DNA of 64,000 nt, from positions 372,001 to 436,000 of the forward strand of contig JAUIHT010000001.1 in the NCBI GenBank assembly GCA_030432235.1, read 5' to 3'. The notes under the pieces were generated by a model. The model made no database searches, was not told the DNA's origin, and worked only from the letters and a program-made list of their open reading frames with translations. The translations under genes and the position numbers were made by a program. Of the stretch, positions 34,720 to 54,164 are shown one piece after another (the stretch's first letter is position 1; every line of letters starts with the position of its first letter). Origin of the DNA: Verrucomicrobiia bacterium (lineage in GTDB: Bacteria > Verrucomicrobiota > Verrucomicrobiia > Opitutales > Cerasicoccaceae).

Positions 34720-34739
34720 TTGCGTAAGTGTTTACGCAA
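34720..34739. promoter_or_regulatory. LacI-type operator before the giant secreted protein
   Basis: TTGCGTAAGTGTTTACGCAA is a near-perfect palindrome with GCGTAA half-sites. A TTGACA hexamer at 34703-34708 stands at the right distance for the palindrome to cover the -10 region. Related palindromes flank the LacI gene at 42009-42026 and 43190-43205. Confidence 0.72.
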
Positions 34740-34762
34740 GATTTTTAATCCAAGCCTGAATA

Positions 34763-37700
34763 ATGCACGCCAACGCACTTTTATCCGCATTTTCCCTGCC
34801 CCGGACCGCACTCTCCAGAGGAAGCTCCTGTTTGCTTCTACTGCTGGTGTTTGTCTACAATGCCTGGGGTGTGGATGCGCTTTCGGTCAAAAAAGGTCAG
34901 GGGAGTGAGATTCTCCTCGAGCTTGGGGGGGAGGCTGTGGATGCGAGCAAGACACGCGTTTATCTGGATATCGATGACGATGCGGGGACGGGCTTTGGCG
35001 ATCAAGGGGCCGATTACATGATCGAAGGTACGACGTTCTACCGGTATCCGGATGGTGCGATAGACTGGAATTGGCAGAAAGTGTACGCGGTCCCAACAGC
35101 TACGGTGGATGGCAAGCTGGTCTACACCTTTCGTGATTTGCCCAAGTTCAAGGTCTTACGGATATCGGTGGAGACCTTTGACGACTCGTGGGCTGTAGTG
35201 GATCGTTACCCGGGCTACGGTGCTATCTCGATTGACTCCGCTAAGCTTACGGAGGCCAAGCCTGCGGACGAACCGGGATTTCGCGCCGAGGCATACCGTG
35301 TCGGTAGCAAGGGGCTTGGCATCAAAGTGGTTGGAGAAGAGCTTCAGCCTGAGCGGTTGCGCGTCTTTTTGAATACGGACGGCGATAACACGACCGGGCT
35401 GGGGCCCTTCGGAGCCGATTACATGATTGAGGGGCTCACTCTTTATAGACACAGCGGCTCCGGCCAGGGCTGGGACTGGGAAACTCAGAGCACGCTGTTC
35501 CCGGATGCGGAGGATGGCGGCGTCTTCTATCGTCTGGACGATGTGGAGGTAGAGGACACCTTCGAGTTCAGCGCGGAAAAGACCGACAGCAACTGGGAGG
35601 TGCTTGAGCGTTATCCGAGCGAGGGGCTTGAAGTCAGGCGAAAATCCGAACTTAAAGAGTATTCTTACTTGAGGCCTGGCGGAAAAGCCGGGCCTAAAAA
35701 TTATCAAATTGAGGAGCTACTGGCTCATGTCCCGCCTTCACTGAGCATCACTTTTGACGAGCGGTTTTCCGGAATGCCGTGGCAGGAGGTTGCCGTGGAA
35801 GCACCTAAGTGGAAACCAGCGGGCGCGGATGAGTCGTTCGATTTGCAGTTCAAGCTTTGGGATGCAAAGTCGGAAACCGCGTATGTTCTCGAACCTGCCC
35901 GGATGCTCCAGGTGGGGGAGTGGTTCCAGTGGCGTGGAGAGGCGGATGGCGTGCACTGGCAAGTGATTGCGCATCCTGATGAGCGCGGCGACCTGGACTT
36001 GTTCGCTCGTTTACACAGCAAAGAGGAGCGTCTGCTGCGATTCGAAATAGCCGTGAAGCTGCCGATGGAGGAGTGGACCTGGCACGACGATGTCCAGTTT
36101 CGCCGCGAGATGACGGATGCGGTGGACGAGTATAGCTACACCGGAGGCAGTCCTTATGGCTGGGACGGACAAGTCTCGAAGTATCCCTTCGGCGTAATCA
36201 GCAAGGGCGACCAGTCCGTCGTGCTGGAAACGGATTTGAGCGAGCCGCGTGTTTTCAAAATCGCCGCCAGACCCGAAGAGGAAACGCTCTCTGTCATCTA
36301 CGATGTCGCCCTGACGCCTGAGACGAAAAAGTTTCCCGGTATGGCTACCTTTCACGCCAGCTTCCGCATGCGCGAGTCTACCGAGCAGGAGGCTTTTCGA
36401 GATGCGTTGGCAGAACTCTACCAGAATTATCCGGCTCTTTTCGAACGTCGCCCCGAAGCGGTCGGCCTCTGGATGCCCTTCACCGACATTTCGACGATCC
36501 CCGGAGCGGAGGATTTCGGCTTTGCCTATTACGAGAAGGGCGGGGCGGTGGGCTCCGATGTGGATTTCGCTCACGAGAACGGCGTGCTGACCATGGTGTA
36601 CACCGAGCCCTGGCTCTACTGGCTGCCCATGCCGGCGGGTGTTGAGCGCAATCCTGAAACGGCTTTGCGTCTGATGCGTCACCTGGCTGTTGGCGGTTTC
36701 AATAAAGCCAACGAGTTTGCCTCCGGTGGTCTTTTAGGCGCGGCGCGCGACGCCGACGGCGAGATCGTCATGACCTTTCAGGATGTTCCCTGGAATTCGG
36801 GCGCGCGTATGGAAGTCAGCACGGATCCCGAACTTCCAACACGGGCCGATGCACCGGCTAACCGTGCCATGGCGGAGTTCACCTTCATGAGCGAAGCGGT
36901 CGCGAACGAAAAAGTGGAAGGCATCTATCTCGATTCGCTCTCGGCCATGTTCATCATGGACTACAATCCCGAGGCGCTGGCGGTGGCCGATTATCCGGCG
37001 ACTTACACAACCGAAGACATGAAGCCGGGGCTGGCCACGCCGATTGCCGCTTATGAGTTTATCGCCGGACTCGGCAACTACATGCAGGCGCGGGGCAAGT
37101 TCCTCATGGGTAATTTCCCGTGCTGGAATTTCCCGTTCTTCATGCCTTACATCGATATCCCTGGAGAAGAGACGCATTGGTTTCACGAAGGGCATTATGA
37201 ACGCCTGCCCGACCACGAGCTGAACTACCGCCGCGCGATTTCCGGTCAGAAAGCCTGGGGCTTCTTGCTCAACGGTAAGTACGATCACTTCGAGCCTGAG
37301 TATGCCCGGCGTTACTTCGAGGACTGCCTGTTCTGGGCGTTCCAGCCGAGCCTTTTCAGTCACGATGCCGCCAACGATCCGTATTGGGAAAACGAGGCGT
37401 GGTATGAGCGCGACCGCATATGGTTCCGTCGTTACATGCCATGGATTCAGCGGCTGGCCAAAGCGGGTTGGCAACCCACCGGCCCGGCTTCCGTCCGGGA
37501 CGCAGCCGTCGAGCTGGAGCACTTCTACGGTCAGGGCGATGAGGCGCTTTTGCTGACCGTACGCAATGTCGGTGACTCTCCAATCGGCTCCGGGATTGAA
37601 CTGGAACTCGATGAGCCGCACAAAGACTGGGTCGTAGTAAATCCGCTGGATGGTCTTGCCGGTTGGCTCCTGCCCGATGAGCAGGGCGTGGTGGAGATAC

Positions 37701-38896
37701 CCATTTACCTGGAAGGAGATCAGGTGCGCGTGTTGACTGTCTTTCCCGCCGATGAGTTGGAAAGCGAAATCGCCTTTTTGGAGAAATGGGACAGTGGCGA
37801 GGGGCAGGAGGACCGGTTGGTGGATACCTTGCGTGCCTTGCAGGCTCAACGCGAGCTGGGTCTGGAAATCGCTATCGAGATTCCGCAGCCGGCGATACTG
37901 GGTGTCGACCAGACGCTGAACGTTCGCGTCAGTAACCGCAGTCAATCGCCACTTTATATCGAAAGCGCCAGGTTGATGGCCGCTGGTGATACGCGGGCAG
38001 TGTCCTTGGAGCCACTGGAGGTCGACCCCGGCTCGCAGGCGAGTTTTCTCGTCGCTGTTCCGGCCAGCTTCGACCATGACGCCTTTGTTGTTGAATTCAC
38101 ACTGAGCCTTGGGAACCAGCCCCAGTCGCTCGACCTCCCGGTTAACTGGACGCGCTTGAATCCGGTGGCGGTCCTGCTGAAGCATGATCGTGTCATTACG
38201 ATTCAGGAGCAGGCCAACATCCCTTTGTCTTTGCACAACCTGCTCGATGTGCCGACCGAGCTGAACGTTGTCTGGAGCGGTGATTTCGGCACGGGGCAGA
38301 TGAGCTTTCCGCTCGAAGCTGGCGTGGAGGAACGCGCATACCTGCCGATTGATCGCAACAGCAGGGCGACGGGACGCGTTCAGCTTACCGCCGATGCCTT
38401 GGGGATGAAGGTCTTTGAGGGTGAGGTCGATTTGGAGTTTCTGGGTGGGCAGGACAGCCTCGTGCGTGACAGCGCGGTACGGGTCGAAACCAGCGGAGAC
38501 TTCCCCGGCTACAGCCCGCAACCCTTACGTGATGGCGTTACCCGTCCGGGGCCGGCCGCGGTTTTCAACCAGGCGGCCTGGGCGTCGGCGGAGTCATCGT
38601 CCGCGCACTGGGTGCGTTTTTCTTTCCCGGAGCCGGTGGAAATCAGCGAGGTGAAAATCTACTGGAACCACGAAGACGGCGTGACCTATACCTCGAGGGA
38701 AGGGCTCGTTCGTGGAGTGACGCAGGATGGCAGGGAGCAGGAGTTGGACAGCTTTAGTAACGACGAAAGCACCGAGGTGACGACCCTGACATTCGAGCCG
38801 GCCCTGCTCTCGAGCCTGGAGATTCGTCAGCCTGCGCGAGGCGGTTCGGAATCCCGACCCAACCTGCTTTGGCTGACCGAGATTGAAGTGCGATAA
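34763..38896 (+). CDS. Giant secreted protein, glycoside-hydrolase-like with CBM9-like repeats and a F5/8-type C-terminal domain
   Basis: This protein of 1377 residues has a signal peptide in the first 40 residues (hydrophobic LLLLLVFVYNAWG). Residues of about 40-300 hold two similar modules, each with VYLDxDxDxxTGxGxxGADYMIEG, resembling CBM9-like sugar-binding or surface domains. The middle (about 500-900) looks like a TIM-barrel hydrolase: AVGLWMPFTDISTIPGAEDF, then VEGIYLDSLSAMF with a possible catalytic aspartate, and ETHWFHEGHYERLPDHELNYR. The last 140 residues look like a galactose-binding F5/8 type C (discoidin) domain (ASAESSSAHWVRFSFPEPVE). I cannot assign a GH family. A LacI-type operator upstream links it to the kinase/epimerase operon. 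Confidence 0.8.
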   Translation: MHANALLSAFSLPRTALSRGSSCLLLLLVFVYNAWGVDALSVKKGQGSEILLELGGEAVDASKTRVYLDIDDDAGTGFGDQGADYMIEGTTFYRYPDGAIDWNWQKVYAVPTATVDGKLVYTFRDLPKFKVLRISVETFDDSWAVVDRYPGYGAISIDSAKLTEAKPADEPGFRAEAYRVGSKGLGIKVVGEELQPERLRVFLNTDGDNTTGLGPFGADYMIEGLTLYRHSGSGQGWDWETQSTLFPDAEDGGVFYRLDDVEVEDTFEFSAEKTDSNWEVLERYPSEGLEVRRKSELKEYSYLRPGGKAGPKNYQIEELLAHVPPSLSITFDERFSGMPWQEVAVEAPKWKPAGADESFDLQFKLWDAKSETAYVLEPARMLQVGEWFQWRGEADGVHWQVIAHPDERGDLDLFARLHSKEERLLRFEIAVKLPMEEWTWHDDVQFRREMTDAVDEYSYTGGSPYGWDGQVSKYPFGVISKGDQSVVLETDLSEPRVFKIAARPEEETLSVIYDVALTPETKKFPGMATFHASFRMRESTEQEAFRDALAELYQNYPALFERRPEAVGLWMPFTDISTIPGAEDFGFAYYEKGGAVGSDVDFAHENGVLTMVYTEPWLYWLPMPAGVERNPETALRLMRHLAVGGFNKANEFASGGLLGAARDADGEIVMTFQDVPWNSGARMEVSTDPELPTRADAPANRAMAEFTFMSEAVANEKVEGIYLDSLSAMFIMDYNPEALAVADYPATYTTEDMKPGLATPIAAYEFIAGLGNYMQARGKFLMGNFPCWNFPFFMPYIDIPGEETHWFHEGHYERLPDHELNYRRAISGQKAWGFLLNGKYDHFEPEYARRYFEDCLFWAFQPSLFSHDAANDPYWENEAWYERDRIWFRRYMPWIQRLAKAGWQPTGPASVRDAAVELEHFYGQGDEALLLTVRNVGDSPIGSGIELELDEPHKDWVVVNPLDGLAGWLLPDEQGVVEIPIYLEGDQVRVLTVFPADELESEIAFLEKWDSGEGQEDRLVDTLRALQAQRELGLEIAIEIPQPAILGVDQTLNVRVSNRSQSPLYIESARLMAAGDTRAVSLEPLEVDPGSQASFLVAVPASFDHDAFVVEFTLSLGNQPQSLDLPVNWTRLNPVAVLLKHDRVITIQEQANIPLSLHNLLDVPTELNVVWSGDFGTGQMSFPLEAGVEERAYLPIDRNSRATGRVQLTADALGMKVFEGEVDLEFLGGQDSLVRDSAVRVETSGDFPGYSPQPLRDGVTRPGPAAVFNQAAWASAESSSAHWVRFSFPEPVEISEVKIYWNHEDGVTYTSREGLVRGVTQDGREQELDSFSNDESTEVTTLTFEPALLSSLEIRQPARGGSESRPNLLWLTEIEVR

Positions 38897-38931
38897 CTGG
38901 GCGGCTCGCTAGAGGAGGGCTTTGGCCTGCC

Positions 38932-39918
38932 TTAAACGGTGGTTGTCCGTGCGCTTTCAATGTAGGCCGTCAGGCCTTCCCGTAGTGGGACGGACGCGGA
39001 GAAGCCCAGCTTTTCGCGTGCAAATTCCGGAGCGCCGAGGGAGTGAATGATGTCGCCTGGGCGCGCTTCCTTGAAAACGGTTTCGTGTGTGTCCGGGAAT
39101 TGCTCGCGGAAGACCGCGAGGATATCAAGCAGGCTGGTGGCCGAGCCCGTGCAGACATTGAAAGCGTGGAAACCGTCGAGCGGAGAGCAGGCGGCCATGA
39201 CGTTCATGCGCGCGACGTCCTGCACACTGATGAAATCGCGCGTCTGCTGGCCGTCCCCGAAGACCGTTGGCGTCTGGCCTTGCAGGAAGCGGCTGAGGAA
39301 GATCGACAAGACGCCGGAGTAGGGGGACTTGGGGTCCTGCCGCGGGCCGTAGACGTTAAAGTAGCGGTTGGCGGTGGCGGTAAAGTGATAGGTGTTGGCC
39401 GCTGCCATGAGCAGCGCTTCGCTGGCGAGCTTGGCGCCACCATAGGGGGAGAGCGGCTGCTTCTCCGAGGTTTCCCGCAGGGGCAGCTCGGGGTTGTCGC
39501 CGTAGATAGCCGCGGACGAGGCAAACACGACGTTGCGCACATCGCATTTCTGGGCCGCGTCGATGACGGATTGGGTCGCCAGCACGTTGCGTTCGAAATT
39601 CAGGGCGGGGTTGTGGATACTCTCCTGCACGCTGACCAGCGCTGCCAGGTGGATGATGGCCTGCGGGTGAAAACGCTCAACGATTTGGTGAAAGGCATCT
39701 GCCTGGGCGACATCCTGGCATTCGAAGCGGAAGTCAGTGCTCTTCTTTGCGGTTTCGAGATTGGCCTCATGGCCGGTGGCAAGGTTATCGACGGCCAGGA
39801 CGGAGGTCCCTTGCTCCAGCAAGAGGTCGACCGTGTGCGAGCCGATGAAGCCCGCCCCGCCGGTGACGAGTACGCGGCGTTCGGGGTTATGGTGCTTCTG
39901 CATGACAAGGGGTTCCAT
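38932..39918 (-). CDS. NAD-dependent UDP-hexose 4-epimerase (GalE-like)
   Basis: This extended SDR enzyme of 328 residues starts with [19 protein letters not shown]. The catalytic Ser-Tyr-Lys are in VFASSAAIYGDNPEL and LSPYGGAKLASEALL, and NRYFNVYGPRQDPKSPYSGV is typical for UDP-GlcNAc/UDP-glucose 4-epimerases. The start may be the ATG at 39903 (MQKHHNPE). It overlaps the end of the nucleotidyltransferase gene by up to 32 bp and is third in the operon. With the kinase and nucleotidyltransferase it forms a Leloir-like set that would turn a free hexose or N-acetylhexosamine into a central UDP-sugar. Confidence 0.9.
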   Translation of the reverse strand: MEPLVMQKHHNPERRVLVTGGAGFIGSHTVDLLLEQGTSVLAVDNLATGHEANLETAKKSTDFRFECQDVAQADAFHQIVERFHPQAIIHLAALVSVQESIHNPALNFERNVLATQSVIDAAQKCDVRNVVFASSAAIYGDNPELPLRETSEKQPLSPYGGAKLASEALLMAAANTYHFTATANRYFNVYGPRQDPKSPYSGVLSIFLSRFLQGQTPTVFGDGQQTRDFISVQDVARMNVMAACSPLDGFHAFNVCTGSATSLLDILAVFREQFPDTHETVFKEARPGDIIHSLGAPEFAREKLGFSASVPLREGLTAYIESARTTTV

Positions 39919-40783
39919 GAATAGATTTCAGCGCTTCGACAACGCGTGGCTTGTCCTCCGGATAGGTGACGCCAAACCACGGGCTTTGGGTCAGCATGAC
40001 CTCGCAGGCGGTGAGTTTCTTTTCAATCATCTCATCCACCACAGTGGGTATGTAGCACTCTGATTTCAACTCCTGGCCGCGCACCTTCAGGAACTCAAGC
40101 AAGTGCGCCTCGATAGTAGCGAAGATGTCCGGCGTGAAGCCCCAGCAGTTCATCGACACGGCGGTGTCGGGCGCCAGCTCCCTACGCGTACCTTCCAGGT
40201 CGTTGCCATGGATGACGCCGCCGCTGTCAGGCTCGATTCCCGTGTACTCCTCGACCTTACGCAGCTGGGCATCCTTTAGCTGGCAGACGCCGCGATTGAC
40301 GCTGCCGTGCGGGGAGAGCGTTTTCTCCAACCGGTAGCCGACCATGCAGGTTGCGAGGCCGGACAGGGATGACAGCCGGTCCGCGAGAAGTACGTAGGCC
40401 TCGCTTCCGTAGTAGTCGTCCGCGTTGATGACGGCAAAAGGCTCGGAGATAACTCCGCGTGCGGCGTAGACGGCTTGAGCCGTACCCCAGGGCTTGGTGC
40501 GTTCCGGTGGCGGCGTAAATCCGGCGGGCAAATCCTCCCGAGACTGGTAGGCGAATTCCAAGGGGATGCGCTGGTCGTACCGGCTGCTGATGTGCTGGTG
40601 AAAGGCGGCTTCGAAATCCCGCCGGATGACAAACACGACCTTGCCAAAGCCGGCCTCGATGGCATCGGCGACGGCGTAGTCGAGCATGGTTTCACCATTC
40701 GGGCCCATGGCGTCGAGCTGCTTGAGCCCACCGTAGCGGCTGCCCATGCCGGCGGCTAGAATAAGGAGAGTGGGGGGATTCAT
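39887..40783 (-). CDS. Sugar-phosphate nucleotidyltransferase family protein
   Basis: The 298-residue protein begins with LLILAAGMGSRYGGLKQLDAMGPNGETMLDY, an NTP-transferase signature with a GG-x-KQ variation seen in a broad bacterial family. FAVINADDYYGSEAY gives the metal-binding aspartates, and TKPWGTAQAVYAAR is the usual substrate-contact segment. It should couple a sugar-1-phosphate to a nucleotide. Position between an N-acetylhexosamine-kinase-like gene and an epimerase supports a role as the activating step. Nucleotide (UTP or other) and sugar are not known. Confidence 0.85.
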   Translation of the reverse strand: MNPPTLLILAAGMGSRYGGLKQLDAMGPNGETMLDYAVADAIEAGFGKVVFVIRRDFEAAFHQHISSRYDQRIPLEFAYQSREDLPAGFTPPPERTKPWGTAQAVYAARGVISEPFAVINADDYYGSEAYVLLADRLSSLSGLATCMVGYRLEKTLSPHGSVNRGVCQLKDAQLRKVEEYTGIEPDSGGVIHGNDLEGTRRELAPDTAVSMNCWGFTPDIFATIEAHLLEFLKVRGQELKSECYIPTVVDEMIEKKLTACEVMLTQSPWFGVTYPEDKPRVVEALKSIHGTPCHAEAP

Positions 40784-40803
40784 CTCAAATGGATTGCTTG
40801 TGG

Positions 40804-41928
40804 TTAACGTGAAATTCCGGCATCGACGTAGTGCCGATGAGCGAGCTGCATGATGGTTTCCTGCTGCGCTTCGATGGACTTTGTCAGGGCAAACTGGCAG
40901 CGGGCTCTATCGAGGTTGTGAGCCGGGCGCTTTATCTTGAAGTAGCGATCGCCGTTGAGGTAGTCCGTGACGAAACGCATGCCGCACTCCAGGGTCATCA
41001 GCTTGGCCGAGCGTCCCAGGCCATCTACTTCATAGTCGTTGAGAAAGTCGCCGGCGGTACTGAGATAGCCCTCCAGCAGTGCCTCGAGCATGGGCATCTG
41101 CATGGATACTTTGGACAAATCCGTTTCGTCTTCCATGGCGGAGTTAGTCGCGGTGCGGACCATGTCGCTGAAGTCGTAAAGCACGCTGCCCGGCATCACG
41201 GTATCGAGGTCGATCACGCAGACGCCCTCGCCGGTAACGTCGTCCAGCATCACGTTGTTCAGCTTGGTGTCGTTGTGAGTGACGCGCTCAGGGATGTCGC
41301 CGGTCTCCATCAAGTTCGCCACCATGGCGAAGTCCGCTTCCCTTTCCTGGAGGAACTGAATCTCCGCCTTGACCTCGGCAGCCCGGTTGCAGGCGTCCTG
41401 TTCAAGCGCCTGGCGGAAGGCTTCGTAGCGCTTGGGTGTGTGGTGGAAATCGGGAATGGTTTCGGCCAGGCGCTCTCCGGGTAGGGTGGAGGCGAGTTTT
41501 TGAAAAGCCCCAAACGCGGCTGCGGCGGACCGTGCTTGTGCCGTCGAGACAATCTTATCGTAGGTGCGCGCCCGTTCGATAAACAGGTAGGTGCGCCAGT
41601 AGTGGCCTTCCGAGTCCTGCACATACGACTGGCCGTCCATGCCGGGAACCAGGGTCAGGCTTCGCCGCATGCGCTCCGGATTCCCTTCCTGGGCAAGCAC
41701 CTGCTGGTTGTGCGCGGTGACGCGCCGGATGTTCTCCATCAGTGACGGCGGGTCCTTAAAGACATGCTGATTGATGCGCTGATGGATGTAGCGCAGACGG
41801 TGCCCGGCCTGATCGTACTCGGCACAGTAGGTGTCGTTGATGTGGCCGCTGCCATAGGGATAAGCCACGACGAAGTCGGCGCGTATATCGAAGCGTTTGG
41901 CAATGGCCGAAAGGTCTGTTGATTCCAT
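40804..41928 (-). CDS. NahK-like anomeric sugar kinase (aminoglycoside phosphotransferase fold)
   Basis: This kinase of 374 residues has the choline/aminoglycoside phosphotransferase fold. The catalytic loop VTHNDTKLNNVMLDD and the metal motif VCVIDLDTVMPGSVLYDFSD are characteristic of NahK, the N-acetylhexosamine 1-kinase of the lacto-N-biose pathway. YPYGSGHINDTYCAEYD near residue 22 is the nucleotide-binding lid. It is first in a leftward operon, 20 bp before the nucleotidyltransferase gene. A LacI-type operator lies in the divergent region upstream. The sugar is likely a hexose or N-acetylhexosamine released outside the cell; which one is not shown. Confidence 0.88.
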   Translation of the reverse strand: MESTDLSAIAKRFDIRADFVVAYPYGSGHINDTYCAEYDQAGHRLRYIHQRINQHVFKDPPSLMENIRRVTAHNQQVLAQEGNPERMRRSLTLVPGMDGQSYVQDSEGHYWRTYLFIERARTYDKIVSTAQARSAAAAFGAFQKLASTLPGERLAETIPDFHHTPKRYEAFRQALEQDACNRAAEVKAEIQFLQEREADFAMVANLMETGDIPERVTHNDTKLNNVMLDDVTGEGVCVIDLDTVMPGSVLYDFSDMVRTATNSAMEDETDLSKVSMQMPMLEALLEGYLSTAGDFLNDYEVDGLGRSAKLMTLECGMRFVTDYLNGDRYFKIKRPAHNLDRARCQFALTKSIEAQQETIMQLAHRHYVDAGISR

Positions 41929-42008
41929 AATAAACGTCTCGGTTTTCGTGCGGGTTTCACCGCATATGAGATATCTTTCTAGAGTATGAGATTAAAAAGG
42001 CAAGAAAA

Positions 42009-42026
42009 TGCGTAAACGCTTACACA
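42009..42026. promoter_or_regulatory. LacI-type operator between the kinase operon and the Gfo/Idh gene
   Basis: TGCGTAAACGCTTACACA is an imperfect palindrome centred on CG with half-sites TGCGTAA / TTACACA. It sits 80 bp from the leftward kinase start and 43 bp from the rightward oxidoreductase start, well placed to control both. Confidence 0.68.
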
Positions 42027-42068
42027 AAAATCTTGACGAGTCACCTTTTCCCGACTTTGATGAGTGGC

Positions 42069-43184
42069 ATGAAGCTGGGAGTAATCGGCTTGGGCACACG
42101 CCTGAGTCACATGGTAAACTGCATGCGCGAGGTCGAATCCGGTCTGCAAGTAGTTGCGGCGCTTGATCCCGATGAGGCCTCGGTGCGCGGCTCCCTGCCG
42201 GAGAAAGACGCCCAATCGGTACGCTTTGTACGGACTGTCGACGAGATGGCTGCGGCGGGCGTAGATGCCATTGCGGTAGGGACGCGGTGCAACCTGCATG
42301 CGCAATACGCCATTGAGGTGGCCTCCACGGGGTTACCGCTTTTTCTGGAAAAGCCGGTCGCGACTACCCTGGAGCAGGCGATAGCGCTGGAAGAGGCCTT
42401 CCGGGCTTCGGAGTCCAACGTGGTGGTCAGCTTTCCGCTGCGTGCCTCCCCTCTCTGCGTGCGCGTGAAACACCTGCTGGAAGAGGGCACGGTCGGGATT
42501 CCCCAGCACGTCATGGCAGTCAATTACGTGCCCTACGGCGATGTCTATTTTAATTCCTGGTATCGGGACTACCAAGTTACCGGTGGTTTGTTTTTGCAGA
42601 AAGCAACGCATGACTTTGACTATCTGGCCTATTGTCTGAGGAGCCCGATTGTGCGGGTGGCCGCGATGCGGTCCTGCGGGCGTGTCTATCGTGATGCGAG
42701 CCTGAGCGAGGGTGAGTCGGACGCCAGCTGTGCTTATTTCGAGCATATCGGTACGCCGGAAACCGGGATGAACGAGGACTCCTCCGGCGCGCTGGTGGAG
42801 TTCGCCAATGGCGTGCAGGCAGTGTACACACAGGTCTTTTTCACGAAGAGAGGTGCGGGCAGGCGCGGTGCCGTGTTCTCAGGATACCGCGGCACGCTGA
42901 GCTTTGACTGGTACGAGAATAAAGCCAGTGTGGTTCATCACTTTGACTCTTTTAAGGACGACTACCAGGTAGACAGCGATTTGCCTCACCATGGCGGGGA
43001 CGGTGCCCTGGCCGAGAACTTCATCCGAGTTGTACGGGGAGAGGCGAACTCGATTTCCAGCATATGGGCGGGCCTGCAAAGCGTTTATGCCTGCCTTGCT
43101 GCTAAAGAAAGCGCGGAAAGCAATCAGTTCTGTGCCGTCCGCCAACTGACCAATCTGGAGCGAATAGAAGTTCCTTTAAGTTAG
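42069..43184 (+). CDS. Gfo/Idh/MocA family oxidoreductase
   Basis: This NAD(P)-dependent sugar oxidoreductase of 371 residues begins with MKLGVIGLGTRLSHMVNCM (dinucleotide motif) and has PLFLEKPVATTLEQA with the conserved Glu-Lys-Pro of the family. QKATHDFDYLAYCL supplies the catalytic His-x3-Asp-like region. The family acts on glucose, inositol and many amino- or deoxy-sugars. I place the start at 42069, directly before the dinucleotide fold; ATGs at 42060 and 42033 are in frame. It is 22 bp before the LacI gene and appears to form an operon with it. Confidence 0.88.
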   Translation: MKLGVIGLGTRLSHMVNCMREVESGLQVVAALDPDEASVRGSLPEKDAQSVRFVRTVDEMAAAGVDAIAVGTRCNLHAQYAIEVASTGLPLFLEKPVATTLEQAIALEEAFRASESNVVVSFPLRASPLCVRVKHLLEEGTVGIPQHVMAVNYVPYGDVYFNSWYRDYQVTGGLFLQKATHDFDYLAYCLRSPIVRVAAMRSCGRVYRDASLSEGESDASCAYFEHIGTPETGMNEDSSGALVEFANGVQAVYTQVFFTKRGAGRRGAVFSGYRGTLSFDWYENKASVVHHFDSFKDDYQVDSDLPHHGGDGALAENFIRVVRGEANSISSIWAGLQSVYACLAAKESAESNQFCAVRQLTNLERIEVPLS

Positions 43185-43189
43185 TGTTT

Positions 43190-43205
43190 GCGTAAATATT
43201 TAACC
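43190..43205. promoter_or_regulatory. Weak LacI-type operator overlapping the lacI start region
   Basis: GCGTAAATATTTAACC keeps one good half-site (GCGTAAAT) and a weaker second half. It ends one base before the regulator's ATG, which suggests autorepression at the translation-start region. Confidence 0.48.
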
Positions 43206-43206
43206 T

Positions 43207-44223
43207 ATGGCCCTCGATATTGTAGAATTCTCCAAGCAGGTCGGTGTATCGACCGCGACCGTGTCACGCGCTTTTTCCGGACGTGGCCGTATCAGTGATA
43301 AGACCCGTGAGCGCATTTTGGAAGAAGCGAGGCGGGTTGGGTTTACTCCCAATGTCCATGCCAGCCGCCTGAATCTGAAGCGTACGAGCCAGATCGGGCT
43401 GTTCTACAGCTTCTCCGAAGAGCCTATTTTTGATTACTACAATATGGAGCTGGCCCAGGAGATTGCCAAAGCCGCGGAAAAGCGGGGGCAGGCTCTTCAC
43501 CTTGAGTTAAGCCGCTCGGGCAAGTCGAACGAAGATCGCCTGCGCCAACTCACTCATGGCGCCGCGCTCGATGGCATCATCGTGGTCGTGGACGGACGGG
43601 CCAGCGGTGCCCGCCTGCTGGAGTCCATTCGGGGCTGCCCGGCGGTGGTCGTGACCAGCAAGCCCTGGTCTCCGGTGGGCAAAGAGATCGTGGTCGAACT
43701 GGATGTCTTTACGGGTATGGCTGAGGCCGTACGCGACCTGGCCAGTCAGGGCCATGAGCGAATTGGCTTTATCGATACGGCGGCCAATGGCGGCAAGTCG
43801 GCCGGCTTCAGTCGCATCATGAGAGAGGTTGGCCTGCGCGTGGACCCGAAGATCATCATCGAGGGGTCCATCAGTTTTGCGGACGGGCAGAAAGCTTTTC
43901 ATCAATTGGCTCCTCAGCAGCCATCCGCCATTTTGTGCGCTACGGATATCCTGGCCATGGGTGCGCTGAACGAGGCCAGCGGCATGGGGCTGCGGGTGCC
44001 TCAGGACATCTCGCTGGTGGGGATGGACGACCTGGCTTTCGCCGCCTACACCACGCCGTCGCTGAGCACGGTGGGCATCCCGCGCAGCCAGATCGCCAAG
44101 ACCGCCATCGACAGCATCCTTTCCCAACTGGACGACGAGGAGTCCGAGAAGCCGCGTGCTTCGGCACGCCACGTCATCGGTAGCTACTATGTGCCGCGCT
44201 CCTCGATCGGCCCACGGTCCTGA
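43207..44223 (+). CDS. LacI-family transcriptional regulator
   Basis: This repressor of 338 residues opens with the LacI helix-turn-helix at residues 3-25 (IVEFSKQVGVSTATVSRAFSG) and the hinge-helix region NVHASRLNLKRTSQIG. The periplasmic-binding-protein-like effector domain fills the rest (LAQEIAKAAEKRGQALHLE; ILCATDILAMGALNEASGM; SLVGMDDLAFAAYTTPSLSTV). It would sense a sugar or sugar phosphate from the surrounding locus. Palindromes with a common GCGTAA core lie before this gene, between the kinase and oxidoreductase genes, and before the giant secreted protein. Confidence 0.95.
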   Translation: MALDIVEFSKQVGVSTATVSRAFSGRGRISDKTRERILEEARRVGFTPNVHASRLNLKRTSQIGLFYSFSEEPIFDYYNMELAQEIAKAAEKRGQALHLELSRSGKSNEDRLRQLTHGAALDGIIVVVDGRASGARLLESIRGCPAVVVTSKPWSPVGKEIVVELDVFTGMAEAVRDLASQGHERIGFIDTAANGGKSAGFSRIMREVGLRVDPKIIIEGSISFADGQKAFHQLAPQQPSAILCATDILAMGALNEASGMGLRVPQDISLVGMDDLAFAAYTTPSLSTVGIPRSQIAKTAIDSILSQLDDEESEKPRASARHVIGSYYVPRSSIGPRS

Positions 44224-44270: not shown

Positions 44271-44954
44271 ATGAAAGCATCCAACATACTCAAATCGGGC
44301 TTCTGCCTGTTCGGAGCGTTCGCTCTCTGTATCTCGGCCTATGCCGGAACTTACAAAACCATCACACTCGATGGTGACTTCTCAGACTGGGTCGGCGTGC
44401 CTATTCTGTCATCCAACACAACGGCAACGGGTAATCCGGTTGATTTCCTGACACTCTATGCGGCAAATGATGAGAATAATCTCTATTTGCGTGTCGTTTA
44501 CAATGACCCGGTAGCGGTCAATTTTGGTGGCACCACGATTTACATCGCTTTGGACAACGACAATAATCTTGCCACGGGTTTCAACATTTTCGGGAACAAC
44601 CTAATCGGTTCAGACATCGGCTGGTCTAATGACTTTCCGTTTGTCCAGACGAGCAGTAACTTCAACACGGGCGAGTCTCTTGATAATGCGGCGGCAGCGA
44701 TAGCGCTCTATAGTACCACTGTCTCGGAGCAGGAAATTGGTATCAGCCGGTCCGCCACGTACACCGCCAGTGGTGACACGATATTTCCCAGCAATACGAT
44801 TGGCTTGGCGATGTACACCTCCGGTACCACGCAGGACGATTTCCTCGGCGCGGGAACTTATACCTTTGCCGTTCCAGAGCCTGAGCATTTTGCGATGATC
44901 TTCGTCGGCGTGGTCGGCCTTTTGGCGGTTGCCCGCCGCCGTTTTCAGGCGTAA
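44271..44954 (+). CDS. PEP-CTERM protein with a CBM9-like domain
   Basis: This exported protein of 227 residues has a signal peptide ending in ISAYAG near residue 25. A CBM9-like module begins at ITLDGDFSDWVGVP and contains IYIALDNDNNLATGFNIFG, a pattern related to the two repeats in the giant secreted protein at 34763. The C-terminal sorting signal is complete: VPEPEHFAM, a hydrophobic helix and RRRFQA. It would be processed by an exosortase and held at or released from the surface with exopolysaccharide. It follows the LacI gene by 47 bp. Confidence 0.9.
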   Translation: MKASNILKSGFCLFGAFALCISAYAGTYKTITLDGDFSDWVGVPILSSNTTATGNPVDFLTLYAANDENNLYLRVVYNDPVAVNFGGTTIYIALDNDNNLATGFNIFGNNLIGSDIGWSNDFPFVQTSSNFNTGESLDNAAAAIALYSTTVSEQEIGISRSATYTASGDTIFPSNTIGLAMYTSGTTQDDFLGAGTYTFAVPEPEHFAMIFVGVVGLLAVARRRFQA

Positions 44955-44973
44955 AAGTTGCTTATCAGATGTT

Positions 44974-45639
44974 ATGCGGCGGATCTCACATACAGGGTTT
45001 TCCCTGGTTGAGCTGCTTGTAAGCGTGGCTGTGCTGGGAGTGCTGGCTAGTATTCTAGTCGCAGTGCTCGGCTCGGCCCGCCAGAGGAGCGATCTGGTGG
45101 GCAGTGTCTCCAATGTGCGTAGCATTGGGGGCGCTGTCCAGCTGTTCGCCGCGGATAATAACGGCACTACGCCCTATTGGTACAATGGAGATACAGACCG
45201 GTACTGGTGGGAATTGCTGCTTCCCTATTCTTTGGGCTATGAAGAATATCAGGAAGGCGGTGACTATTCCATTTATCATAGTCCAGCGCATGATGAGTTT
45301 GATGGCACCACCAAATACACCATTAACCAGACCATTTCCTATGGCTGGAATTACTTGGTCGGTGGGCGGCATGTTGGTGATAGTAGTTTTAAAGGGGATC
45401 ATGCCTTACCGACTTCTCTTTTTCCTGAGCCGGCAAACACGCTTATTCTGACGGATGGGCCAAAGTATGAGTGCTGGGGTTACATCACTCACCTCCGGCC
45501 CGGCGACCCGGATCGCTATGGTAATAATAAGCTCGTTTCGCTTTTCCTGGATGGGCACGTACAGCCTCTGCCTTATGAAGATCTTTCTCAAGAGGATCCC
45601 TACTTCAAAGTAATCAAGGAATTACCGGAGAGGAAATAG
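44974..45639 (+). CDS. Type II pseudopilin-like protein with prepilin signal
   Basis: The 221-residue protein has a type IV prepilin signal: a short basic leader, then the cleavage site before FSLVELLVSVAVLGVLASI. The mature part contains NVRSIGGAVQLFAADNNGTTPYW and ends with LVSLFLDGHVQPLPYED, the DGH motif of the DUF1559/H-X9-DG group that is greatly expanded in Planctomycetes and Verrucomicrobia. I use the ATG at 44974; the reading frame extends upstream to 44929 without meaning. It follows the PEP-CTERM gene by 19 bp. The function of these single pseudopilins in sugar loci is unknown. Confidence 0.88.
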   Translation: MRRISHTGFSLVELLVSVAVLGVLASILVAVLGSARQRSDLVGSVSNVRSIGGAVQLFAADNNGTTPYWYNGDTDRYWWELLLPYSLGYEEYQEGGDYSIYHSPAHDEFDGTTKYTINQTISYGWNYLVGGRHVGDSSFKGDHALPTSLFPEPANTLILTDGPKYECWGYITHLRPGDPDRYGNNKLVSLFLDGHVQPLPYEDLSQEDPYFKVIKELPERK

Positions 45640-45724: not shown

Positions 45725-47737
45725 ATGAGCACGCTTGACTGGGGCATTGTCGCGGCGTTCGTCTGTGCGCTCTTCGGCCTGGTACTTTATTCCCGGCGCT
45801 TCATGCGTGGGGTGGCGGACTACCTGGTGGCCAACCGTTGCGCGGGCCGCTATCTGCTCACTCTATCCGAGGGCATTGCCGGGCTCGGCGCCATTACTAT
45901 CGTCGGAGCCTTTGAAATTACGTATCAGGCCGGCTTTGTGCCCATTTGGTGGAGTTATTTCCTGTCACCGCTGGGGCTCATCATTGCCCTGTCGGGCTTC
46001 GTCATTTACCGCTTCCGGCAGACGCGATCGATGACCATGCCGCAGTTTATCGAGCTGCGTTACAGCCGGAGCTTTCGTGTCTTTTGCGGTTTGTTGGCCT
46101 TCTTGTCCGGGCTGATTAACTACGGTGTGTTTCCGGCCATAACGGCCCGCTTCTTCATCCACTTTTGCCAACTGCCCGATGTGATCCTTATTCTGGGTGA
46201 ACCGATAGCGGTCTTTCCTCTGGTCATGGCGGTCGAGCTGATCGTGGCCTTGCTCTTCGTTTTTTTCGGAGGGCAGATCACCGTGCTGCTGACGGACTTC
46301 GCCCAGTCGATGTTCAGCCTGATCGCCTTTCTGGTCATCTTGCTGTTTCTCATCTGGGCCTTCGACTGGAGCGAAATCATAAAGGGGCTGCAAACACGGC
46401 CGGAGGGCCAGTCCATGATTCACCCCTTCGAGGCGGGCGGGATGGCCGACTTCAACGTGAGCTACTACCTTATCGGCGTCTTCATGGTCATCTATACGAC
46501 CCGGGCCTGGCAGGGGAGCTCCGCTTACAATGCCTCCGCCCGCTCGCCGCACGAGGCTCGCATGGCCGGAATCCTGGGGCACTGGCGTGCCATGGCGCAG
46601 GGCATGGCGATGCTGCTGATGCCTCTGTGCGTGTTTGCCGTCCTGCACAATCCGGTCTTTGCTGAGCAGGCGGCGGAGATCACACGCAGCCTCAGCCAGT
46701 TCAACGAGCCGACCATCCGCAACCAGATGACGGTTCCTGTGGGCCTGCAGCATATTTTACCCATTGGCATTACCGGACTGCTGGCTACGGTCATCGTTGC
46801 GGCGGCCGTGAGCACGGACAATACCTACATGCACTCTTGGAGCAGCATCTTTATCCAGGATGTCATTTTGCCGTTCCGCAAGAAGCCGCTCAGTCAGCGC
46901 CAGCACATCCTGCTGCTGCGGATCGGCTTGGTGGGCGTGGCCGTTTTCGCCTGGTGCTTCAGCATGCTGTTTCCGCTAAGAGATTACATTTACATGTTCT
47001 TCGATATCACGGGGGCTATATTCCTAGGTGGCGCGGGCTCGGTCATCATCGGCGGCCTCTATTGGAAGCGTGGTACGACCACCGGAGCCTGGGCGGCGAT
47101 GATTATCGGGGCGGTGTTTTCGGCGGGCGGGCTGCTATTGCAATCCTACTGGGGGCAGGTGTCGCCTGTGCTGGTGGAGTGGTTTCCCGCCAGTGATTAC
47201 CTGATGGGCATTGCGGATGACTTCCCCTTCAATGGACGCCAGATGATGCTGTTCGCCATGCTCTCGGCCATTGTAGCCTATGTCGGCGTCTCCCTGCTTC
47301 AGCGGAGCGAACACAATATGGACAAACTGCTGCATCGCGGTCGGTACCGACGCCCGGACGATCCGTCGGTGGAAAAGCCGCTAAAGTCCTGGCGCAGTCT
47401 GGGGATGGGGCCTGAGTTCACCAAGTGGGATAAGGTCATCTACATCGGTACGTTCCTCTGGGTGCTGGGCTGGTGGTGCGTTTTTCTGGTCGGTAGCGCG
47501 ATCCATATGACCATCGGCATCAGCGAGGAGGCCTGGGTGAACTTCTGGCAGGTCAACTTGTGGATTTCCGTCCTGCTAGGGGTCTTTACCACCTTCTGGT
47601 TTATCATTGGTGGGGTAGGCGATGTGCGTCGCCTCTTTGCTGATTTGAAAAACAGTGCTGTGGATTCTCAGGATGACGGCTCGGTGATCGATGGCATGAA
47701 TTTGAATGATTTGGAGGTGCCTCATGAACAGCATTAA
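45725..47737 (+). CDS. SSS-family sodium:solute symporter
   Basis: This transporter has 670 residues and about 14-15 membrane spans. The N-terminus VADYLVANRCAGRYLLTLSEGIAGLGAITIVGAFE has the SSS arrangement, and RYSRSFRVFCGLLAF and AAAVSTDNTYMHSWSSIFIQDVILP are typical of a subfamily with a long C-terminal extension found in Verrucomicrobia. It should bring in a sugar or sugar acid with Na+. Its C-terminal 14 bp overlap the start of the beta-helix protein gene, so the two are coupled. A paralogue is encoded at 60620-62917. Confidence 0.92.
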   Translation: MSTLDWGIVAAFVCALFGLVLYSRRFMRGVADYLVANRCAGRYLLTLSEGIAGLGAITIVGAFEITYQAGFVPIWWSYFLSPLGLIIALSGFVIYRFRQTRSMTMPQFIELRYSRSFRVFCGLLAFLSGLINYGVFPAITARFFIHFCQLPDVILILGEPIAVFPLVMAVELIVALLFVFFGGQITVLLTDFAQSMFSLIAFLVILLFLIWAFDWSEIIKGLQTRPEGQSMIHPFEAGGMADFNVSYYLIGVFMVIYTTRAWQGSSAYNASARSPHEARMAGILGHWRAMAQGMAMLLMPLCVFAVLHNPVFAEQAAEITRSLSQFNEPTIRNQMTVPVGLQHILPIGITGLLATVIVAAAVSTDNTYMHSWSSIFIQDVILPFRKKPLSQRQHILLLRIGLVGVAVFAWCFSMLFPLRDYIYMFFDITGAIFLGGAGSVIIGGLYWKRGTTTGAWAAMIIGAVFSAGGLLLQSYWGQVSPVLVEWFPASDYLMGIADDFPFNGRQMMLFAMLSAIVAYVGVSLLQRSEHNMDKLLHRGRYRRPDDPSVEKPLKSWRSLGMGPEFTKWDKVIYIGTFLWVLGWWCVFLVGSAIHMTIGISEEAWVNFWQVNLWISVLLGVFTTFWFIIGGVGDVRRLFADLKNSAVDSQDDGSVIDGMNLNDLEVPHEQH

Positions 47738-49454
47738 GGCATGCACGATTGTTGGTTTGCTGTTGTCGGCGGTTGGCTTGAGCGCCGGCGACTTCTATGT
47801 CTCTCCCACGGGGGACAATGCGGACGACGGCAGCCAGGCGACCCCTTGGCTTACGGTCGGGTACGCGCTTACCCAGGCGCAGCCGGGCGATATCGTTCAC
47901 CTGCGCGCGGGTGAGTATCCCGAACGTGTTGTCATGACGCAATCCGGCCAGGCCGATGCCTACATCACGCTACGGGCCTATGACGATGAAGAGGCCGTCA
48001 TCGATGGCACCGGCCAAACCGTATCCGGGCGTCAGGGTCTGGTCGAGATTCAAGGATGCTCCTATGTGCGCCTGGAGGGGCTGACAATCCGCCATTTTTC
48101 GACCAGCAGCCGTGACCAGGTGCCGGTCGGCATTCTTTACGTTGGCTCGGGGACCGGCGTGGAGATTGTGGGCAACACCGTCGAGCAGATAGCCTCGACC
48201 GCGACGCCGCGCGCCAATAAGTTGGGCCGGGATGCGCACGGCATTGCGGTGTTTGGCACGGAGACCACTCTGATTAGCGAGTTGCTGATCATGGAAAATA
48301 CGGTACGCGATCTCACCTTGGGCTCGAGCGAAGCCATGGTCCTCAACGGTAATATTGACGGTTTTCGCATCCTCAACAACGTGGTGCAGGACTGCGATAA
48401 CATCGGCATCGACTGCATCGGCTTCGAAGGCACCGGGCCGTCGGATGCGCTCGACCAGGCGCGTAACGGCTGGATATGCGGCAATCGCGTCAGCGGCATC
48501 ACCGCAGTGTCGAATCCGTCCTACACCGAGCCGTCGGCAGGGGGCATTTACGTCGATGGTGGCCGGGATATCGTCATTGAGCGCAACGAGGTAGCGAACT
48601 GCGATATCGGCATCGAAGTGGCCTCCGAACACGCCGGAAAGGCGACCTCGAACATCATTGTCCGCTCGAATCTGCTGCGGGGTTGCCTGATGGCCGGGCT
48701 CTTCATCGGGGGCTATGAAGAGGGAACGACGGGCAGCGCGGAGAACTGCCTCATCACGCACAATACTTTTTATAACAACGACACGCAGGCGTCCAGCGAT
48801 GAGTACGGGCAGCTGCACCTCCAGTATGAGGTGCGCGACACTCAGATTCTCGGGAATATTTTCTACCATTCGATTACGAAGTCCGGCGAATACAACCTGT
48901 TCATCGTCCAGTGGAACAACACGGATTCCGGGCTGACCATCGACCGCAACCTGTATTACGGCCCGGATACGCCGGTTTGGGTGCTGGGAGACGACTGGAT
49001 TGAGGGTTGGTCGGACTACGATGCCTTAAGCCTGAGTGGTTCCTCGGAAGCTTGGGGTGACCCCCGGTTTGCCGATCCGGAAAACGGAGATTTTGGTCTG
49101 GAGAGCGATTCGCCGGCCATTGATATGGGGAGTTCCGATGACGAGGCGGGTGTTCGTGATTTGCCGGGTAACAATCGTCAGGAAGGTGCGTCGCTGGATG
49201 CGGGCGCGATTGAGTTTGGAGCAGCTTCCGGGGAGTTCGGCGCTCTCGATATCTCTGCCATCGGCCAGGAGGCGGTGCTTAGCCTGTCACTGGCCCCGGG
49301 GTGGATTGGCGCCTTGGAATCCAGTGATGATCTCAGCCGATGGCAGTTGATGCCGGGGCAGGTCATCGGCTCCATTGCGAGTGGCACAGAGGCCAGCCTG
49401 GGGTTGGCATGGATGGATTCCCGCAGCCGGTTTTACAAGCTCACCGTCTTCTGA
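47724..49454 (+). CDS. Secreted right-handed beta-helix protein (DUF1565-like)
   Basis: This protein of 576 residues has a signal peptide (MNSIKACTIVGLLLSAVGLSAG). It starts its mature part with FYVSPTGDNADDGSQATPW and IVHLRAGEYPERVVM, the DUF1565/pectate-lyase-like beta-helix start. Repeated N-x-V and I-x-N-x coils follow (IVGNTVEQI, MENTVRDL, ILNNVVQDC, ERNEVANCDIGIEV). It may cut or bind a polysaccharide, for example as a lyase or epimerase, but catalytic residues are not obvious. The start at 47724 has GGAGG 6 bases upstream. The C-terminus ends in the SRFYKLTVF type seen in many Verrucomicrobial exported proteins. Confidence 0.88.
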   Translation: MNSIKACTIVGLLLSAVGLSAGDFYVSPTGDNADDGSQATPWLTVGYALTQAQPGDIVHLRAGEYPERVVMTQSGQADAYITLRAYDDEEAVIDGTGQTVSGRQGLVEIQGCSYVRLEGLTIRHFSTSSRDQVPVGILYVGSGTGVEIVGNTVEQIASTATPRANKLGRDAHGIAVFGTETTLISELLIMENTVRDLTLGSSEAMVLNGNIDGFRILNNVVQDCDNIGIDCIGFEGTGPSDALDQARNGWICGNRVSGITAVSNPSYTEPSAGGIYVDGGRDIVIERNEVANCDIGIEVASEHAGKATSNIIVRSNLLRGCLMAGLFIGGYEEGTTGSAENCLITHNTFYNNDTQASSDEYGQLHLQYEVRDTQILGNIFYHSITKSGEYNLFIVQWNNTDSGLTIDRNLYYGPDTPVWVLGDDWIEGWSDYDALSLSGSSEAWGDPRFADPENGDFGLESDSPAIDMGSSDDEAGVRDLPGNNRQEGASLDAGAIEFGAASGEFGALDISAIGQEAVLSLSLAPGWIGALESSDDLSRWQLMPGQVIGSIASGTEASLGLAWMDSRSRFYKLTVF

Positions 49455-49832: not shown

Positions 49833-50711
49833 TTAAAGAAGCTGGGCGTTTTTCTGATAGGAACTCGGGCTCTCATCGGCTTCCCGTCGAAACCAGCGTG
49901 AAAAGGTATGAATGGAAGGGAAGCCCATTTTTGCCGCGATTTCTGTAACGTTCAGGTTGGACTCGGCCAGTAGTTGTTGAGCCCAGGCAACCCGTCGGGC
50001 GGTGATGTATTGGTGTGGGGCGCAACTGAATGTCGCCCTGAATTTACGAACGAAATTTCGCGGTGACATGAAGGCAACAGCCGCTAGTTCATCCAGGCTT
50101 GGCGGGTTATCCAGCCTGCTGTCTATCAGGCATAGCACCGCGCTCATTGAGCGGCCGATCACTTCCTCGGTGTTCCAGCTTTCATTTAGATTATCGTTAC
50201 CTTGTTGGGCTGGCCAATAGCAGAGCACTTCTGTGAGGGCGACGCATTGGACCGGTGTACGCGAATGAGGCATCATTGCGAGGCGCACTAGCCGCTCCAA
50301 TGAGCGCATCAACCGGAAATCCGTGATCGTGAGGTGTGTATGTCGGCTTAAAAATCGGGAGCGAATCATCGGCCAGCGAGGATTCACCTGTATTTTCAGA
50401 CTGAATACTTTTGCGTCCGTACGATACGGGGTGAGCTCAATCTCGTGGCGTTCCCCTGGATAAATCGCAAATGCCGTGACGTGCTGGACTTCGATCCGCT
50501 GCTTGTTGATAGTCACATGGCCGGAGTAGCCATAATTTAAATCGAGCTGTAGAATATCTTTATGCTCGTGTGGCGGAATATTAATGGAGCCGTCGAACCC
50601 GTGACAGGCTGCCTGAATCAAGCAATATGGATTTTTGAATATCTTGGCCGACAACTCCAACAGGTGACTGTCAATGCTATGTTCACGCGCTTGGCTTGAG
50701 GGCACCGCCAT
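49833..50711 (-). CDS. AraC-family transcriptional regulator
   Basis: This regulator of 292 residues has an N-terminal cupin-like sensor (SINIPPHEHKDILQLDLNYG, FAIYPGERHEIELTPYR). Its C-terminal double helix-turn-helix runs from about 190 to 290: LDELAAVAFMSPRNFVRKFR and VTEIAAKMGFPSIHTFSRWFRREADESPSSY. It is followed by no other gene on its strand and preceded by the enolase-superfamily gene 18 bp upstream, so it is the last gene of the leftward sugar-acid operon and probably controls it. The effector is probably a sugar of the same locus. Confidence 0.93.
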   Translation of the reverse strand: MAVPSSQAREHSIDSHLLELSAKIFKNPYCLIQAACHGFDGSINIPPHEHKDILQLDLNYGYSGHVTINKQRIEVQHVTAFAIYPGERHEIELTPYRTDAKVFSLKIQVNPRWPMIRSRFLSRHTHLTITDFRLMRSLERLVRLAMMPHSRTPVQCVALTEVLCYWPAQQGNDNLNESWNTEEVIGRSMSAVLCLIDSRLDNPPSLDELAAVAFMSPRNFVRKFRATFSCAPHQYITARRVAWAQQLLAESNLNVTEIAAKMGFPSIHTFSRWFRREADESPSSYQKNAQLL

Positions 50712-50729
50712 AGTTTCAGATGAGGGGTT

Positions 50730-54011: not shown

Positions 54012-54164
54012 TATGCCAGTATAGGGCATTGCTCTGCTTATGTATTTGGCTGGAATGGCCAAATGCTTGGATAAGTGAGTCATCTTTGACGCCACCCCGG
54101 AAAGACCGACGGACGGCCATTATACGGCATACGCACCCTTGCTTCGTGGCGCGTTCTGGAAGTT

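Follow-up and report, generated by a model that had tools for sequence, protein, structure and literature searches.

The local regulons of LacI-family regulators surveyed in PMC4052901 combine an even 18-bp palindromic operator, few sites, sugar genes and likely autoregulation; in the available text of that survey, 1251 of 1303 regulators have even palindromes, the centre is CG in 1173 of these, and other or degenerate centres are given for 49 and 29. Among enzymes that cut microbial polymers, PelA, Sph3 and Ega3 are described in the available text of PMC12054363 as acting on galactosamine-containing exopolysaccharides, with a modified barrel that carries an Asp/Glu pair. Here we analyse a 64,000-nt stretch of DNA (the window) from a Verrucomicrobiia bacterium of the family Cerasicoccaceae (GenBank assembly GCA_030432235.1, contig JAUIHT010000001.1, positions 372,001 to 436,000, forward strand), in which a gene for a giant secreted protein, a sugar-kinase operon and a gene for a LacI-family regulator, LacI-1, are accompanied by three palindromes (Table 1). 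The reading that we consider likely is that these palindromes are the operators of the adjacent LacI-1 and mark a local regulon for the use of an N-acetylgalactosamine (GalNAc) polymer of the Pel/galactosaminogalactan type. For the regulon itself, comparative genomics makes a strong case, and the identity of the polymer is probable.

Table 1. Features of the locus, in window coordinates
Feature	Position	Strand	Remark
Operator 1, TGCGTAAGTGTTTACGCA	34721-34738		24 nt 5' of the giant's ATG
Giant secreted protein, 1377 amino acids (aa)	34763..38896	+	candidate new glycoside hydrolase family
UDP-GlcNAc/UDP-GalNAc 4-epimerase, PelX-like	38932..39918	-	
Sugar-1-phosphate nucleotidyltransferase	39887..40783	-	best solved relative 3pnn, uncharacterised
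N-acetylhexosamine 1-kinase (NahK-like)	40804..41928	-	
Operator 2, TGCGTAAACGCTTACACA	42009-42026		between the divergent nahK operon and gfo
Gfo/Idh/MocA family protein (gfo)	42069..43184	+	ATG 42069 taken as start; TTG 42033 possible
Operator 3, TGCGTAAATATTTAACCT	43189-43206		weak copy; fills the 22-nt gfo-lacI gap; 0 nt to the lacI ATG
LacI-family regulator LacI-1	43207..44223	+	PF00356 and PF13377
PEP-CTERM protein	44271..44954	+	shares a domain with secreted regulon proteins of G005
Type IV pilin-like (N-methylation) protein	44974..45639	+	
Sodium:solute symporter	45725..47737	+	
Right-handed beta-helix protein	47724..49454	+	signal-like N-terminus (by eye)

Sites 1 and 2 are near-perfect 18-bp palindromes lying 7.3 kb apart, and site 3 is a half palindrome with an intact left arm and a degenerate right arm (in a single orientation the three read TGCGTAAGTGTTTACGCA, TGTGTAAGCGTTTACGCA and TGCGTAAATATTTAACCT). 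A preliminary description of this stretch had named three GCGTAA palindromes, before the giant gene, between the kinase operon and gfo, and at the lacI start; all three are real, the last being only a weak copy. The pattern TGYGTAARYGTTTACGCA occurs without mismatch only at sites 1 and 2 in the 5,724,694 bases of the organism's own genome (G000, 5.7 Mb, with the window on contig C37); as it was derived from these two sites, the informative part is the distance to the next-best place, which has 2 mismatches. For the symmetric 16-mer GCGTAAACGTTTACGC, constructed from the motif of the preliminary description, shuffled windows held a mean of 0.21 matches at up to 3 mismatches, and none of the 100 reached two. 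The shared half-site means nothing alone: GCGTAA is found 27 times in the window against 22.2 expected, a number matched in 20 of 100 shuffles, and across the genome GCGTAA-N2-6-TTACGC occurs three times, its reversed control twice.

We then compared the sites across 10 family genomes, where an orthologous locus is present in G002, G003, G004 and G006 (giant identity 55-58%); sequence conservation in these four loci is in our view the decisive evidence that the sites are more than chance. The pattern TGYGTAANYNTTTACGCA, written from the window's sites before the relatives were scanned, matches exactly at the giant gene in all four, and 17 of the 18 columns of this site are invariant across five genomes. 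The nahK/gfo site is retained at 0-2 mismatches in the four loci (in G006 before gfo alone, with no nahK) and the site 3' of gfo at 1-3 mismatches, so that the even palindromes upstream of the predicted LacI-1 targets are conserved, site 3 only partly. In ungapped alignments, which make flank identity somewhat too low, the identity of the giant site is 0.99 against 0.61 and 0.58 for its 60-nt flanks (n=5), that of the nahK/gfo site 0.90 against 0.65 and 0.67 (n=5), and that of the lacI site 0.85 against 0.69 and 0.62 (n=4; G006, which has no lacI-1, is excluded). A -35-like TTGAC starts 18 nt upstream of site 1 and a conserved TTGAC starts 6 nt after site 2; in the four genomes measured, such an element begins 17-18 nt upstream of the giant site, and at the nahK/gfo site one follows after 5-6 nt. 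Site 2 itself lies 80 nt from nahK and either 42 nt from the gfo ATG at 42069 or 6 nt from the TTG at 42033.

In the six giant-bearing genomes, 18 of the 19 distinct sites within one mismatch of TGYGTAANYNTTTACGCA are at genes of the system, as counted by reading (G000 2/2, G002 4/4, G003 2/2, G004 3/3, G005 6/7, G006 1/1; the site counted as outside is G005:C1:581423), and the four family genomes without the giant hold 3 such sites in total. The preliminary description had named frequent occurrence in unrelated places as a sign against its motif; near-exact matches do not behave in this way, loose matches would. The sites also follow the genes when these are scattered. In G005 (5.8 Mb) the cluster is dispersed and its four exact sites occupy four separate chromosome places: three precede the genes for a distant giant, a 985-aa protein (of an 811-aa type met below) and a homologue of the beta-helix protein (38% identity), and the fourth lies between nahK and gfo. 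In G054, from another family of the same order, the whole cluster is found within one stretch (nahK, nucleotidyltransferase, epimerase, gfo, two LacI, PEP-CTERM, pilin, PelA-like hydrolase, symporter, beta-helix and giant), with intact operator arms before the giant and a weaker operator, at 2 mismatches, before gfo. The small LacI-linked regulon proposed earlier is thus well supported by comparison. As a separate observation, the G054 LacI beside gfo (L130:4384-5399) gives matches in two frames, apparently frame-shifted after the helix-turn-helix, and the second, by the giant, gives a single-frame match.

That the palindromes arose by chance and have no function is an explanation to which we give next to no weight. 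It can draw on half-sites and loose matches being about as common as in controls, but relatives keep near-exact sites at the corresponding genes, and the footprints speak against chance for sites 1 and 2, site 3 being the weakest. A palindrome at G000:C42:560605 (2 mismatches) is near a PIN-domain gene and was left out of the regulon; on contig C42 of the same genome a lone palindrome, TGTGTAAACATTCACACA (L039:10606-10623), is situated between small open reading frames (ORFs), one of them PIN-domain.

LacI-1 scores above the cut-offs for both of its standard domains, the LacI helix-turn-helix (PF00356, 40.1 bits against 27) and the periplasmic-binding-like sensor (PF13377, 96 bits against 26.5), and a second paralogue, LacI-2 (45-47% identity), stands beside the giant in G002, G003, G004 and G006. 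The segment VSTATVSRAFSG is common to all nine LacI-1 and LacI-2 sequences and VSTATVSRAFSGRGRIS to eight of them, that of G005 differing by one letter. Of the 10 family genomes, the 5 that carry LacI-1 (at least 60% identity) are also those that carry NahK. When the regulon stretches were searched with the four central bases left free, 20 sites departed from the motif at no more than one of the outer 14 positions, and every one of them has a pyrimidine-purine step at the operator centre; these sites are related by descent and hence do not form independent trials. The step varies between TG, CA, TA and CG, with CG in only some of the 20. In LacI-type regulators the hinge leucine wedges into the central operator step. 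The locus resembles the local regulons of PMC4052901 in its even 18-bp palindrome, few sites, sugar genes and likely autoregulation, and differs from them in a degenerate pyrimidine-purine centre where theirs is mostly CG, within the limits of the text available; the string 'verrucomicrob' has 0 occurrences in the main text of that survey.

The sites could be real and belong to another LacI-type regulator, with LacI-1 a bystander, an explanation that we hold to be very improbable. A first look at the own genome gave 80 LacI-like candidates, and G006 keeps the operator without LacI-1. However, the G006 cluster contains LacI-2, whose recognition helix is the same, the lacI gene directly adjoins site 3, and all 6 giant-bearing genomes have LacI-1 or LacI-2, against 0 of the 4 others (E up to 1e-60). 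That G006 keeps the same operator with LacI-2 only would be because the two paralogues share VSTATVSRAFSG and VSTATVSRAFSGRGRIS.

The kinase is NahK-like by alignment with 4wh1 (NahK; E 4.3e-76, residues 6-355), HNDTKLNN and IDLDT being kept, and the nucleotidyltransferase matches 3pnn at E 2e-87 and UTP-glucose-1-phosphate uridylyltransferases weakly. The epimerase has a Ser at the position of Escherichia coli GalE Tyr299, a position that decides the acceptance of N-acetyl sugars. Because of these kinase, nucleotidyltransferase and PelX-like epimerase matches, including the Ser, the pathway product is likely UDP-GalNAc/UDP-GlcNAc (uridine diphosphate-linked GalNAc or N-acetylglucosamine, GlcNAc). 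The same three activities, NahK, nucleotidyltransferase and 4-epimerase, are united in one operon in the Bifidobacterium lnp/galacto-N-biose pathway; the GNB/LNB phosphorylase of PF09508 (GH112) was found in 0 of the 10 genomes but also in 0 of 14 controls, which leaves its absence undemonstrated. The top solved match of the epimerase, and its best solved relative, is 6wjb (E 9e-61), named PelX in the available text of PMC9165828, with the Ser and YxxxK catalytic residues kept. PelX, a UDP-GlcNAc C4-epimerase, serves Pel synthesis according to the available text of PMC9135694; the cluster epimerase would run in the reverse direction. The earlier proposal of a sugar cut outside the cell, phosphorylated and activated to a UDP-sugar agrees with this, on comparative and predicted grounds (the glycosidase fold of the giant, NahK, the nucleotidyltransferase fold and the PelX matches), although it omitted the downstream transporter operon.

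A biosynthetic cluster, which would make UDP-GalNAc for the organism's own exopolysaccharide and use hydrolases to trim it, as PelA does in pel operons, appears improbable to us. PelX does supply UDP-GalNAc for Pel synthesis in Pseudomonas protegens (PMC9135694, in the text available), yet no glycosyltransferase or polymer synthase was seen among the scanned genes of the window and the relatives, a scan that did not take in every neighbour, and the cluster has both a LacI regulator and a sodium:solute symporter. Counted in the longer frame of the Gfo/Idh gene, alignments to relatives start at residue 13 for G002, G006 and G054, at residue 9 for G004 and at residue 1 for G003 and G005. The product was considered as a GH109 enzyme, a family of NAD-dependent alpha-GalNAcases, and this was rejected: none of its 39 solved matches is named as a glycosidase, the names being of oxidoreductase type (dehydrogenases, reductases, oxidoreductases and some derived from those of biosynthesis genes, few in number).

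The giant consists of a hydrophobic signal-like N-terminus (by eye), two N-terminal repeats, a beta-sandwich and catalytic barrel at about 310-930, and a C-terminus with a sub-threshold Pfam match to F5/8 type C. It has otherwise no Pfam match, none to PF03537 or PF12138 at E up to 0.01, and nothing among NCBIfam or solved-structure sequences (E up to 1), and the profile of its family against solved structures returns one unrelated row (E 0.48). Relatives of the catalytic region are found in 54 of 387 sampled Verrucomicrobiota genomes, 35 of them at E 1e-50 or better. The AlphaFold model of residues 310-930 (pLDDT 92, pTM 0.92), as read by us, predicts a beta-sandwich and a (beta/alpha)8 barrel in which inserted strands follow strand 3. 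Foldseek places at the top MYORG, the alpha-N-acetylgalactosaminidase NagBb, a blood-type galactosamine galactosaminidase and a 3,6-anhydro-galactosidase, with PelA 34th (E 6e-5, TM 0.62 on the target). NagBb (5wzq, GH129), to which there is no sequence match, has a Foldseek E of 1.2e-11, TM 0.40 and a VIA-align Z of 15.2.

The predicted barrel of the giant, with its strands inserted after strand 3, appears similar in fold to PelA (GH166), Sph3 (GH135), Ega3 (GH114) and GH191, and D724 and E803 appear to be placed like their Asp/Glu pair at strands 4 and 6, as read from strand order and not by superposition; the giant differs from them in its 1377 aa, its added domains and the lack of a sequence match. 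The best catalytic candidates come from alignment A3, whose 32 rows comprise 10 from earlier loci and 22 chosen from 30 loci. Two rows are duplicates (L091 = L084 and L095 = L087), giving 30 distinct rows, and the structure prediction used all 32. D724 is kept in 27 of the 30 (Glu in the other 3), E803 in 25 and D798 in all 30; over the 32 rows the counts are 28, 25 and 32. We regard the giant, with its predicted glycosidase fold, as a candidate for a new glycoside hydrolase family.

The clusters of G002-G006 encode, between pilin and symporter, a hydrolase that scores above the Pfam cut-off for PF03537 and has an F5/8-type domain like the C-terminus of the giant; no near-exact operator is found directly before this gene. 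A profile built from the five hydrolases together with their G054 homologue finds the hydrolase domain of PelA (5tcb) at E 2.8e-24, the PelA catalytic pair being aligned in the relatives' hydrolase (the Asp of FLDT and the Glu changed in 5tsy, E218A; numbered Asp160/Glu223 in the available text of PMC12054363). Their Pfam label is GH114 and their sequence match is to PelA, of GH166. A Spherulin4 protein (PF12138, E 2e-42) is present in 3 of the 10 genomes, G002, G003 and G004; for that of G002, two spherulin-4 structures match at E 1e-12, namely 5d6t and the structure that the available text of PMC12054363 identifies as Sph3, 5c5g. The operators before this Sph3-like gene are weak (2-3 mismatches), and the gene of an 811-aa protein that comes next has an operator departing from the motif at one position in G002 and G004 and at two in G003. 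Together with what the available text of PMC9135694 says of the structure of Pel, these matches make it probable that the sugar is GalNAc and that it derives from a polymer of the Pel/galactosaminogalactan type, of alpha-1,4-linked galactosamine (GalN) or GalNAc. A regulon for the use of such a polymer was not found among the titles and abstract openings listed, a set in which subscription journals are mostly uncovered and which does not prove absence.

Several observations pull the other way. As regards regulation, consensus scans find no sigma-70 promoter at sites 1 and 2, near-exact criteria miss the weak site 3 (where the only promoter match overlaps the start codon and was set aside), and the 18-mer at up to 2-3 mismatches is not consistently commoner than its reversed control, counted with all mismatch levels pooled. 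The pyrimidine-purine centre is missing in 3 of 9 two-mismatch sites (6 have it), G006 retains giant and operator with neither NahK nor LacI-1, and in fetched stretches of seven distant genomes (G016, G029, G062, G065, G221, G352 and G379), read with a simple ORF caller, the giant's relatives have no neighbouring cluster proteins; in G083 the neighbours are a symporter, a PEP-CTERM-like and a Gfo-like protein, and in G213 a LacI-like and a PEP-CTERM-like protein. As regards the substrate, the structural ranking of the giant is not specific: VIA-align Z values of 15-17.5 are given alike to cycloisomaltooligosaccharide glucanotransferase, GH66, GH191, PelA, GH31, Ega3 and NagBb, with Ega3, PelA and GH191 (15.2-16.5) level with GH66 and GH31, and the modelled fold alone therefore does not name the substrate. 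Moreover, the own genome has no PF03537 or PF12138 match and no protein of the 811-aa type, a search with which found only the repeat that it shares with the giant. In this organism the substrate therefore rests on the giant, NahK and their kin.

These last points also suit a different substrate, in which the same LacI regulon would serve another GalNAc or hexosamine glycan (mucin-like, or sulfated from algae or invertebrates) and the PelA- and Sph3-like proteins of relatives would be side activities. Besides PelA, the barrel of the giant also resembles GH129 and blood-type alpha-GalNAcases, and GalNAc is common in other glycans. We consider this unlikely, though the most serious of the alternatives, as three separate links of the Pel/galactosaminogalactan type, PelA-like, Sph3-like and PelX-like, are found in the regulon family.

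From the sites, their conservation, the gene families and the predicted fold of the giant, all obtained by computation, we infer the promoters, repression, inducer, substrate, transport, operon extent and pathway direction of a regulon for Pel/galactosaminogalactan-type polymers as follows. Three units would be repressed: the giant, nahK-nucleotidyltransferase-epimerase, and gfo-lacI-PEP-CTERM-pilin-symporter-beta-helix, the last probably running to 49454 with gaps of 22, 47, 19, 85 and -14 nt. With no inducer, a LacI dimer would sit on each palindrome, its hinge opening the central pyrimidine-purine step. Site 1 would overlap the expected -10 position after the conserved TTGAC and site 2 would act between divergent genes, and we propose that transcription is therefore blocked; site 3 is probably an auxiliary operator or a roadblock and not the operator of a separate promoter, because it fills the gfo-lacI gap. 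When the polymer is present, a small amount of released sugar would act as inducer. Outside the cell the giant would then cleave a polymer that contains GalNAc, probably one of alpha-1,4-linked GalN/GalNAc similar to Pel or galactosaminogalactan; the PEP-CTERM protein may hold the glycan at the surface and the symporter may import the sugar, which NahK would convert to GalNAc-1-phosphate, the nucleotidyltransferase to UDP-GalNAc and the epimerase to UDP-GlcNAc.

The domain of the PEP-CTERM protein is common to the 985-aa and 689-aa proteins of G005, and a role as surface glycan binder is possible; its AlphaFold model (pLDDT 58) was too weak and no fold search was based on it. The PEP-CTERM and pilin-like pair (44271-45639) stays together in G002-G006 and G054, an unexpected combination in a locus for polysaccharide use. 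The gene immediately upstream of that for the giant, 32684-34594, encodes a 636-aa protein with a C-terminal LOG/lysine-decarboxylase-like domain and a long N-terminal part that has no Pfam match. Beyond the beta-helix gene, on the minus strand, 49833-54095 holds an AraC regulator, an enolase-superfamily protein, a second Gfo/Idh protein and a xylose-isomerase-like TIM barrel, and resembles a separate sugar pathway. A second, larger sodium:solute symporter at 60620-62917 shares 65% identity with the one encoded upstream of the Sph3-like gene of G002. On contig C54 of G006 (L066:1106-11534), a 1352-aa protein with no Pfam match and a 766-aa protein share segments of 80-83% identity beside a symporter.

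Taken in its widest form, our proposal is that the Cerasicoccus family and a neighbouring family have a dedicated catabolic regulon for polymers of the Pel/galactosaminogalactan type, in which the giant founds a new glycoside hydrolase family (54 of 387 genomes), a PEP-CTERM-anchored protein catches the glycan, and bacteria eat the biofilm glue of other microbes; we advance it tentatively, at a little under an even chance. If it is true, substrate, sensor and full route would be named for a class of polymer known mainly as bacterial and mould biofilm glue, and a phylum left unmentioned in the main text of PMC4052901 would gain a LacI regulon that is easy to test. The large uncharacterised enzyme family of the giant would then be a source of possible biofilm-cutting catalysts.

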